Of a stretch of 64,000 nucleotides of DNA, positions 9,317 to 12,130 are shown piece by piece. Position numbers and translations under genes: made by a program. The DNA comes from Bdellovibrionia bacterium (GTDB taxonomy: Bacteria > Bdellovibrionota > Bdellovibrionia > Bdellovibrionales > JAGQZY01). The DNA lies in assembly GCA_030424715.1 (NCBI GenBank), contig JAUHWH010000006.1:1-64000 (forward strand), in the 5' to 3' direction. The notes beneath the pieces were generated by a model. The model made no database searches, had not been told where the DNA came from, and saw only the letters and a program-made list of their open reading frames with translations. Positions within the stretch are counted from its first letter, which is position 1, and each line of letters begins with the position of its first letter.

Positions 9317-10038
9317 CAAGTCGTTCCACCGCGTAAGGCTAGCTTCTGTAGCCCATGGAGAGTCTCACAGCCGCCAATGGCAAGGTCTAACATCTGATTG
9401 AATTGTTCTCTCGAGAAGGCTTTTTCCTCAGCGGTGCCCTGGATTTCAACCAAGCCGCCTTGATCATTGATCACAAAGTTACAATCGGTTTCTGCGTTGC
9501 TGTCTTCTTGGTAGCACAAGTCCAAGAGGGGATTGTCTTCAACGATGCCCACACTGATGGCCGCGACGGTGTTTATGATCGGATTTTCCTTAATCTGCTT
9601 TTTCTGCATCAAGTACTCAACGGCTTGAGCTAAGGCCACAAAGCCGCCCGTGATCGCTGCGGTTCGAGTGCCTCCGTCGGCTTGTAGAACATCGCAATCG
9701 ATGGTGATCTGAATGTCTTTAAGTTTGGTTAAGTCCACACAGCTACGCAGTGAACGAGCCACCAAGCGTGAGATCTCTTGTGTGCGCCCAGAAGACTGTG
9801 TCTTGTCCCTTCGCATCCGCTCGTGAGTCGATCGTGGGAGCATGCCATACTCTGCGGTCACCCAACCTCGATCCTGTCCTTGTAACCATTTGGGAACATT
9901 GGTTTCAACAGAGGCGTTACAGGCCACCTTGGTGTGGCCAAATTCAACCAGGGCGCTGCCCTCGGCGTAGCGGTTAAATTGGGTGGTTATTTGAACGGGG
10001 CGAAGTTGGTCGGGTGTTCGGCTATCGTGTCTTTGCAT
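9316..10038 (-). CDS. rph: Ribonuclease PH
   Basis: Phosphorolytic 3'-5' exoribonuclease that trims tRNA 3' ends. The N-terminal RTPDQLRPV block, the phosphate-binding SRLVARSLR segment (around residue 90) and CDVLQADGGTRTAAITGG are diagnostic. The 240 residues match the usual length. The rph start overlaps the end of the upstream amidase gene by 17 bp, and its stop overlaps rdgB by 1 bp. The rph-rdgB pairing is widespread in bacteria. Confidence 0.97.
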   Translation of the reverse strand: MQRHDSRTPDQLRPVQITTQFNRYAEGSALVEFGHTKVACNASVETNVPKWLQGQDRGWVTAEYGMLPRSTHERMRRDKTQSSGRTQEISRLVARSLRSCVDLTKLKDIQITIDCDVLQADGGTRTAAITGGFVALAQAVEYLMQKKQIKENPIINTVAAISVGIVEDNPLLDLCYQEDSNAETDCNFVINDQGGLVEIQGTAEEKAFSREQFNQMLDLAIGGCETLHGLQKLALRGGTT

Positions 10039-10774
10039 TCTGTGTTTCTAGAATGCTTGAGGGAAGTTTGTCCATGTTTTTCGCGTAGTCCTTAAGAGCG
10101 AAGTGGATTTTTTTTGCGATGCTCTCTTGATAGGCGCTTTGGGTGAGCCTTTTACGCTCTCTCGGGTGAGTGAGGTAACCCACTTCAACTAAGATCGCTG
10201 GCTTTTCGTTTTGACTCAAAACAAAGAAGGGGCCCTGGCGAATCATTTTCTTTTTCTTGGGTGACCAATTTTTTCGAAGATACTGGCTGACTTGGTAGCT
10301 CTTCAAAATGCGGTGAGATTTTTTCAGATCAAATAAAATGGTTTCGACATCACCTTCGGGCTTGGTTTCTCCGGAGGTCACAGATTGCTCAGTGTGGGCC
10401 AGGTACATGGACTCTTCATCTGCTGGTAGTTGATTTTGGATGTAGAACTCAGCACCCTGGGCTCTGCGGTCAGGGTGGGCATTGGCGTGGATAGAAACGA
10501 AGAGGTCACTGTTAAAGGACTTGGACAGGGCCACTCTTTGCTCTAAAGACAAATCTGTCTCTCTGTTCCTCAAAATTTGTACCTTGAAGTCTTTGTCGCG
10601 GTTCAATCGTCGGTAGACTTTTTTGGCCACTTGTAGAGCAATCTCCGATTCGATGACGTTGCCGTGGACAGCCCCCTTCTCTGAGCCGCCGTGGCCAGGG
10701 TCGATCGTCACTCGCAGAGCGGCGATGGAGGGAGTGCTAAGTAGAACAAAAATGGCGATTGGAATCAGACGCAT
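10022..10774 (-). CDS. N-acetylmuramoyl-L-alanine amidase (Amidase_3)
   Basis: Periplasmic zinc amidase that cleaves the MurNAc-L-Ala bond of peptidoglycan. There is a Sec signal peptide (residues 1-18, ending SIAA). The catalytic domain shows DPGHGG with zinc ligand His28, an ESE segment with the second ligand, SIHANAH with the third, and VEVGYLTHP with the catalytic Glu. The 250 residues form just the catalytic domain, with no AMIN or SPOR targeting domain. It is the first gene of the leftward housekeeping run. Candidate roles are cell division or wall remodelling. Confidence 0.93.
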   Translation of the reverse strand: MRLIPIAIFVLLSTPSIAALRVTIDPGHGGSEKGAVHGNVIESEIALQVAKKVYRRLNRDKDFKVQILRNRETDLSLEQRVALSKSFNSDLFVSIHANAHPDRRAQGAEFYIQNQLPADEESMYLAHTEQSVTSGETKPEGDVETILFDLKKSHRILKSYQVSQYLRKNWSPKKKKMIRQGPFFVLSQNEKPAILVEVGYLTHPRERKRLTQSAYQESIAKKIHFALKDYAKNMDKLPSSILETQNAKTR

Positions 10775-10929: not shown

Positions 10930-10957
10930 TTGACAGAAGTGGCATTTACGGTATTTT
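10930..10957 (+). promoter_or_regulatory. Candidate sigma-70 promoter for short plus-strand unit
   Basis: A perfect TTGACA at 10930-10935 is followed after 16 bp by TATTTT at 10952-10957. It points rightward into a region with no annotated plus-strand gene, which ends about 140 bp later in a strong terminator. Predicted by eye only. Confidence 0.5.
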
Positions 10958-10972
10958 AACTAATATACTGGA

Positions 10973-11101
10973 ATGAAAGAGGTTTTTTACTTTGGCAAGT
11001 TTTTGGCCGTTGGCCCTGGATTTGCTTTTATAGAGAGTAGATCCCAACCCCCCCCCTTTTTCGACCAGGCCCCCAATAACCTGGTCGTTTTTTTTGCCTA
11101 A
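10973..11101 (+). other. Candidate small RNA or 42-residue small protein unit
   Basis: The stretch between the amidase gene (start at 10774) and the outer-membrane protein gene (ending at 11098), both leftward, holds a plus-strand unit: promoter-like boxes at 10930-10957 and a T8 terminator at 11062-11095. It contains a 42-codon frame from ATG 10973 to TAA 11099-11101 (starting MKEVFYFGKF). The frame runs through the terminator hairpin, so it would not be fully transcribed if the terminator is efficient. An RNA of about 130 nt is therefore the better reading. It does not resemble 6S, SRP or tmRNA in any feature I can see. Confidence 0.4.
11062..11095 (+). terminator. Rho-independent terminator
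   Basis: Perfect 8-bp stem (11062-11069 with 11080-11087), 10-nt loop, then eight T residues on the plus strand. On the minus strand the hairpin is followed by A residues, so it is oriented for rightward transcription. Confidence 0.85.
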
Positions 11102-12024
11102 AGCTCGAAGAGTATCCCTAGCTTAGCAGCAATAACATTGGTTTTGACGGTGTCTGAGGGAGGAAAATAAAGGTAATCGGCACCCCCATAAATCTCCCAC
11201 CCATTGAAGGGCAAAGTCACACCCGCACCGGCGATCAAAAGACTGGTGGTTGATATGGAGTCGGCTTGAATCGCTCCGACATTTCCGGGGCCACCTGTGG
11301 TGGTGGTCGACATTGGCGAGTAGATACCCATCCCCAGGTTGGCAAAGATACCAAAGCTATCGGATCTCATAAGATAATAGCGGACCAAAAGATCGAGTGC
11401 TATATAGTTGAGGTCGGTTTGATAATCCACTCCTCCAGTTACAGAAAGTTGATCGATACCCAAGCGGGCTCGAACCCCTAGGTTGCTAAAGAGCTCGTAG
11501 TCTAAGACGGCTTTCACTCCCATGGAAGAGCCCGACATGTCCTGGGTCGAGCTAGTGGTGATCGCACCGCTGGTGGTATTGATCGTTGCTGTTTGACTAG
11601 CGGATCCAAAAGCTCCCATCAGACCAAATTTTAGGTCGGAGCCACCGCTGGAGTAATTTTCTGTTTCGGCCACTTCAGAAGCTTCTTCGGTTTCGTAGCT
11701 TCGGCGACGCTTTTTCATTTTACCTTTGCGAGCTTGAGTCAACATGCCCTTTTTCGCCTTCCCTTTTTTCAACTGGGCGATGACGTTGCGTCCCTTCATT
11801 TTTCTAACGAGAACCAAAGCCCGTTTTTTTCCCGAGCTAGTGGTCAGATACAGGAGATCACCCTTGGACACCGAACGGGCCTCGTCGGGATCGAGAACAA
11901 TCAATATCTTCTTACCTTTTTTAACCTTGAAAACTCGGCCGGCCCAAGAGGGTTGTGCCACCAAAAGGAATGCCATTAAAAGCAAGGGCGCTAATGTCCA
12001 CTTTGAAGTTTGAGATCGCTGCAT
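11098..12024 (-). CDS. Outer-membrane beta-barrel protein with basic N-terminal domain
   Basis: 308 residues from the chosen ATG at 12024, which has AAGGAG 5 nt upstream; a longer frame starting at 12057 lacks this. Signal peptide about residues 1-28, ending PSWAG. Residues ~30-110 are very Lys/Arg-rich (KKGKK, KKRRRS) and are predicted to form a small periplasmic or surface domain. Residues ~130-308 alternate polar and hydrophobic residues, with Gly and aromatics, and end in a hydrophobic Leu (GILFEL), as in 8-stranded OmpA/OmpW-type barrels. No specific family name can be given. It stands alone on the minus strand between ssb and the amidase. Confidence 0.75.
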   Translation of the reverse strand: MQRSQTSKWTLAPLLLMAFLLVAQPSWAGRVFKVKKGKKILIVLDPDEARSVSKGDLLYLTTSSGKKRALVLVRKMKGRNVIAQLKKGKAKKGMLTQARKGKMKKRRRSYETEEASEVAETENYSSGGSDLKFGLMGAFGSASQTATINTTSGAITTSSTQDMSGSSMGVKAVLDYELFSNLGVRARLGIDQLSVTGGVDYQTDLNYIALDLLVRYYLMRSDSFGIFANLGMGIYSPMSTTTTGGPGNVGAIQADSISTTSLLIAGAGVTLPFNGWEIYGGADYLYFPPSDTVKTNVIAAKLGILFEL

Positions 12025-12130
12025 AATTACTCCTTTGGAGACAGGCGTTTTCGCCAACCTTTATGATAGAAAAATATCTATAGGTGGCCAAGTCCAAAGT
12101 ATCTGATTGATGAGCGATTAGAAGGAGTTA

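Follow-up and report, generated by a model that had tools for sequence, protein, structure and literature searches.

The window analysed here, a stretch of 64,000 nucleotides from a Bdellovibrionia bacterium (contig JAUHWH010000006.1), contains a predicted small RNA belonging to a conserved family of C-rich small RNAs with sigma-54-type promoters in the order Bdellovibrionales, and the existence of this family is well supported by comparison of genome sequences. We consider it probable that the RNA acts in trans without Hfq, being activated through sigma-54 and an enhancer and pairing through its C-runs with G-rich translation-initiation regions. The features of the locus are as follows.

10022-10774, minus strand: Amidase_3 (N-acetylmuramoyl-L-alanine amidase) gene (PF01520, E 1.6e-42), with rph, rdgB and prs after it
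10930-10957, plus strand: sigma-70-like site TTGACA-16-TATTTT of the sequence-only reading, probably coincidental
10973-11101, plus strand: 42-codon frame opening with ATG, no Pfam match, probably not a gene
11010-11026, plus strand: predicted sigma-54 promoter, TTGGCCCTGGATTTGCT (11010-11029, TTGGCCCTGGATTTGCTTTT), by match to the family consensus
11037-11095, plus strand: predicted small RNA of about 59 nt, from sigma-54 geometry, model match and fold
11048-11056, plus strand: 5′ C9 tract, proposed pairing region, unpaired in the predicted fold
11062-11069 and 11080-11087, plus strand: arms of the terminator hairpin, with a loop at 11070-11079 that starts with C5
11088-11095, plus strand: U-tract (T8) and RNA 3′ end, by direct reading
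11098-12057, minus strand: convergent outer-membrane beta-barrel gene (OMP_b-brl, E 7.5e-6, just under the curated cut-off)

The RNA unit and its family

The sequence-only reading had described a perfect 8-bp stem followed by eight T residues, and both are present: the arms CGACCAGG (11062-11069) and CCTGGTCG (11080-11087) enclose a 10-nt loop and lead directly into the T8 tract. That reading had also put the RNA length at about 130 nt, implying a start near 10965; the sigma-54 geometry points instead to about 59 nt from a predicted start at G11037, 12 nt after the C of the -12 element, a distance at which G is the commonest base (63% of 86 loci). The RNA at 11037-11095 folds with a minimum free energy of -13.1 kcal/mol (z = -4.2). 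Across 50 aligned members, 44 cells of the stem were changed on both sides, whereas shuffles gave 20 such cells and slid controls 0-13. One stem pair is UA in 25 members, AU in 24 and GC in 1. By both its fold z-score and the family covariation, the hairpin exceeds chance.

The family C-run is mostly 5-8 C long and, in 63 of 86 loci, has its first C 15-16 nt past the -12 C, corresponding to about position +4 of the RNA; the spacing from promoter to C-run is constant. The C-runs, in the leader or the loop, are unpaired in the predicted folds, as in sX13- and RepG-like RNAs. The loop of one family reads CCCCUCCUUACCC and contains the familiar anti-Shine-Dalgarno sequence of 16S rRNA. Relatives share a layout of TGGC-N9-TTGCTYTA-like bases, about 12 further bases, 6-9 C, a hairpin with a C-rich loop, and a T-run. 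The elements listed by the sequence-only reading are real, but the conserved parts that it missed are the sigma-54 promoter, the C9 tract and the C5 of the loop. C-run lengths vary between close relatives, from 4 to 9 in the leader and variably in the loop (in the window, 11048-11056 and 11070-11074), so slippage could tune the RNA. In genus g37 (L164-L169), the promoter, C-runs and stem are kept and the U-tract is weak (AACCTTTTCTC); termination or the 3′ end may therefore differ there.

When 60 relatives were searched at the DNA level, similarity was confined to the 3′ part of the region, at about 11021-11106. A covariance model built from 50 aligned RNA parts, with the promoter left out, matched 109 of 141 Bdellovibrionales genomes, exactly once in each, including the window (11046-11094, E 4.2e-6). 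The description of the unit as an orphan is not supported, because a single-copy, syntenic RNA family runs through the order. A scan of 369 genomes of the phylum added two matches in a sister order, each having GG-N10-GC as well as an amidase gene downstream, and one borderline match elsewhere. That borderline locus (L298, G344, another class) has several C4-C6 runs and a terminator, with no sigma-54 site seen, and may be an independent poly-C RNA, if it is not a chance match.

A strict RNA motif searched in 84,980 species genomes gave 36 matches. Those with both promoter and T-run are all Bdellovibrionales, including B. bacteriovorus strain kdesi, and the 15 matches in other phyla were discarded, as none has a T-run after the hairpin. 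In the window, Rfam 15 gave no match at the gathering threshold; at relaxed E-values, the window segment and the loci of ten relatives yielded only sub-threshold noise, and a tRNA/tmRNA search found none. The covariance model placed the RNA at 2,620,005-2,620,059 on the minus strand of genome G031, which we take to be B. bacteriovorus HD100. RNAs combining a sigma-54 site and a C-run with other folds were also observed at L023 (G002), L022 (G004), L058 (G077), L092 (G008), L103 (G035), L105 (G038), L112 and L113 (G013), and L005 (G058 C33), G013 having a pair of almost identical units separated by about 450 bp; judged from sequence, these are paralogous or analogous poly-C RNAs.

Promoter and proposed upstream activator site

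Classical -24/-12 promoters of sigma-54 combine GG-N10-GC with TTGGCAC and TTGCT. On the plus strand of the window, the -24 GG lies at 11012-11013 and, after N10, the -12 GC at 11024-11025. This site is the best match in 64 kb to the family promoter consensus, TTGGCAC-N5-TTGCTYTA (86 loci), with one mismatch, all others having two or three. Because the covariance model was made from RNA parts without the promoter, it allows a non-circular test: GG-N10-GC occurred no more than 34 nt upstream in 34 of the 39 model matches that the promoter pattern had missed, compared with 2.5% of control windows. A pattern combining the promoter with the C-run was present in 78 of 141 Bdellovibrionales genomes, whereas the reversed control pattern gave only about half a dozen matches in the same search. 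With the -24/-12 elements at a fixed distance from the RNA, as in a sigma-54 transcription unit, the predicted promoter is of sigma-54 type across the family. The rpoN gene is present in 127 of the 141 genomes, including the window's own; as it is nearly universal in the order, its co-occurrence with the RNA is uninformative and was set aside as evidence.

The promoter proposed earlier, TTGACA-16-TATTTT, is not a family feature. Sigma-70 promoter-like sites are at chance level (4 found in 4 kb, 3.2 expected), and the regions upstream of the RNA in relatives show no excess of such sites over shuffled sequences, with 10 of 12 positions matching in 2 of 89 loci where about 5 were expected; these 89 loci rule out a sigma-70 promoter as a shared element. 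Conservation of both hairpin and promoter in relatives had been named as the test of the original claim, and the hairpin withstood it, while the sigma-70-like promoter did not. The chance level of that match would also suit the view that a fortuitous promoter-like sequence merely lies beside the transcription terminator of a neighbouring gene. However, both flanking genes lie on the other strand, and the conservation of the unit in 109 genomes with a sigma-54 promoter of its own contradicts this view, leaving it barely credible.

Upstream of the promoter, TGTC-N9-GACA (at most one mismatch) was found in 33 of 75 regions, compared with about 6 in shuffles, whereas neighbouring spacings were not or only weakly enriched (N10 in 13 of 75, about 6 expected). 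The palindrome's main positions relative to the promoter are -46, -57 and -68. These are 11 bp apart, the periodicity expected when an enhancer site is contacted from one side of the helix. Near the promoter in the window, the only site of this kind is a weak one. In HD100-like genomes, TGTC-N9-GACA with GG-N10-GC in range exceeds the reversed control (30 vs 11 in G031), and several genes downstream of the G031 sites encode secreted or lipoprotein-like products. The G031 sites include 983728, 3156801-3156926, 3613478-3613596 and 3708964-3709083, among others, and some such sites elsewhere in Bdellovibrio genomes lie between divergent promoters. From their sequence, the TGTC-N9-GACA sites look like a sigma-54 regulon with one candidate enhancer-binding protein. 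The QseF/GlrR site on the sigma-54-driven glmY gene is TGTC-N10-GACA (PMC8745638). Since N9 dominates in the present family (33 of 75, compared with 13 of 75 at N10) and the spacing thus differs, QseF/GlrR was not accepted as the named activator.

Orientation and independence from neighbouring genes

The RNA adjoins the amidase gene, its syntenic neighbour and the head of an amidase-rph-rdgB-prs operon, in 80 of 91 loci. In 73 of these 80, the two share a strand, with the gene start typically 80-170 nt past the RNA, and the sister order shows the same RNA-amidase arrangement. These observations would fit a cis-acting leader or attenuator, in which transcription from the sigma-54 promoter would continue into the operon and the hairpin would act as a conditional terminator, under the control of pairing or protein binding at the C-run. 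However, in the remaining 7 of the 80 loci, those of the window and of six genomes in the genus Bdellovibrio, the RNA points away from the amidase gene and keeps its promoter, C-runs and terminator. In the six Bdellovibrio genomes, it faces instead a secreted coiled-coil protein gene, which elsewhere lies on its far side. The window's inversion falls within its own genus and is recent, because the RNA and the amidase gene share a strand in the genus-mate G001. In addition, there is only one stem-loop and no conserved anti-terminator, and we regard a leader or attenuator as unlikely. The orientation has flipped in two lineages with the unit's own promoter and terminator retained, which argues for an independent transcription unit rather than an amidase leader.

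The sequence-only reading was right that the amidase and beta-barrel outer-membrane protein genes flanking the unit are both on the opposite strand, and its proposal of a small, non-coding, independently transcribed plus-strand RNA ending at the terminator is supported. The 42-codon frame that it noted (10973-11101) does run through the terminator. Although the frame is open and has an ATG, it begins before the RNA start predicted from the sigma-54 promoter, extends over the terminator and has no Pfam match, so we rejected it as a gene. Only 51 of 91 loci have an open frame across the RNA, and the RNA part is conserved by base-pairing, making a translated peptide gene highly improbable.

Proposed mode of action and known systems

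The favoured reading, a trans-acting RNA, builds on five points that genome comparison establishes at the level of sequence: that the family exists, how it is structured, which type of promoter it has, that it is independent of neighbouring genes and that Hfq is absent. Sigma-54 RNA polymerase, together with an enhancer-binding protein that in Bdellovibrionaceae probably binds the upstream TGTC-N9-GACA palindrome, would transcribe a single-copy RNA of about 55-60 nt. Its short 5′ leader would expose a C-run near the 5′ end, and the loop of its intrinsic terminator would present a second C-rich stretch, sometimes the anti-Shine-Dalgarno-like CCUCCUU. In the presence of the sigma-54 signal, the C-runs would pair with the G-rich ribosome-binding sites of several mRNAs, whose translation would be repressed.

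A search for Hfq family matches found none in 60 Bdellovibrionales genomes, the window's own included, with control genomes positive; the RNA thus shares the Hfq independence of sX13/RepG-like RNAs, and the long GC pairs formed by C-runs could dispense with a chaperone. Sponge small RNAs are a known kind, and two separate exposed C-runs with otherwise little conserved sequence would also suit an RNA whose C-rich single strands titrate an RNA-binding protein, base-pairing not being its main action. No protein partner is known for such a sponge and Hfq is absent, while the CCUCCUU of some loops fits pairing better; we judge a sponge to be rather improbable.

For the proposed pairing with mRNAs, genes with G6 before the ATG exceed the reversed control (106 vs 32 in G031). 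The median ratio of this excess is 2.7 in genomes with the RNA, 2.1 in those of the order without it and 1.7 elsewhere in the phylum; the difference within the order has p = 0.13 and is phylogenetically confounded. As RNA-less genomes also show the G6-N-ATG excess, more weakly, it is not specific and was not taken as proof of targeting, with which it is nevertheless compatible. In G031, genes that carry at least six G at ribosome-binding distance include, as identified by eye, a flagellin at about 562,132 (AAGGGGGGTTCTATG) and many signal-peptide proteins, and those identified in the same way in the window's genome include FliW-like and DksA-like genes.

More tentatively, this new order-wide family might be a core regulator of the Bdellovibrionales, acting broadly as an anti-Shine-Dalgarno repressor on mRNAs whose ribosome-binding sites contain G-runs and helping to switch the predator's programme without Hfq. 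If so, the repressed set would include flagellin and many secreted proteins in HD100-like genomes and the FliW- and DksA-like products in the window's genome. To our knowledge, very few small RNAs have been described in Bdellovibrio-like predators. An RNA that is single-copy and syntenic, is predicted to be sigma-54-driven and occurs in most of the order's genomes makes a good candidate core regulator at the post-transcriptional level; its HD100 locus (about 2,620,005-2,620,059, minus strand) offers an immediate entry point. C-run/G-run targeting is so far known to us from scattered, unrelated small RNAs (sX13, RepG), and an ancient order-wide family would be an especially minimal case.

Within the same organism group, the RNA is absent from the eight published attack-phase small RNAs of B. 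bacteriovorus HD100, APsRNA1-7 and merRNA, whose coordinates lie elsewhere, none at about 2,620,005-2,620,059; they measure 98-655 nt, and three have FliA-type promoters (PMC3627812). The RNA, if expressed, may therefore be growth-phase or condition-specific, or, at about 55 nt, may have been lost in library preparation. Campylobacter jejuni CJnc230/FlmE is likewise an RpoN-linked small RNA with a single-stranded anti-Shine-Dalgarno stretch, but it is processed from the flgE mRNA, measures 88-98 nt and carries the motif CCUU with no long C-runs (PMC11187230). Enterobacterial GlmY, with QseF/GlrR, resembles the family in its sigma-54 promoter and upstream TGTC...GACA palindromes; the spacing is N10 in the QseF consensus and N9 here, and GlmY, which has no sequence relation to the family, acts through RapZ on GlmZ without poly-C (PMC8745638).

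The closest parallels concern the C-rich stretches themselves. Xanthomonas sX13 uses C-rich loops to repress mRNAs that carry G-rich motifs close to their start codons, independently of Hfq, and shares with the present RNA both the unpaired C-rich stretches and the Hfq independence (PMC3771888). However, sX13 has 115 nt and three stem-loops and belongs to another phylum (PMC3771888), whereas the Bdellovibrionales RNA is about 55-60 nt long with a single stem-loop, and has a C-run close to its 5′ end and a predicted sigma-54 promoter, with no sequence relation shown. Helicobacter pylori RepG (Campylobacterota) has one variable G-repeat as its target and, in the text consulted, is described with no such 5′ poly-C tract; its C/U-rich terminator loop pairs with a homopolymeric G-repeat located in the leader of an mRNA, and a C-rich terminator loop is what the Bdellovibrionales RNA has in common with it (PMC8295292).
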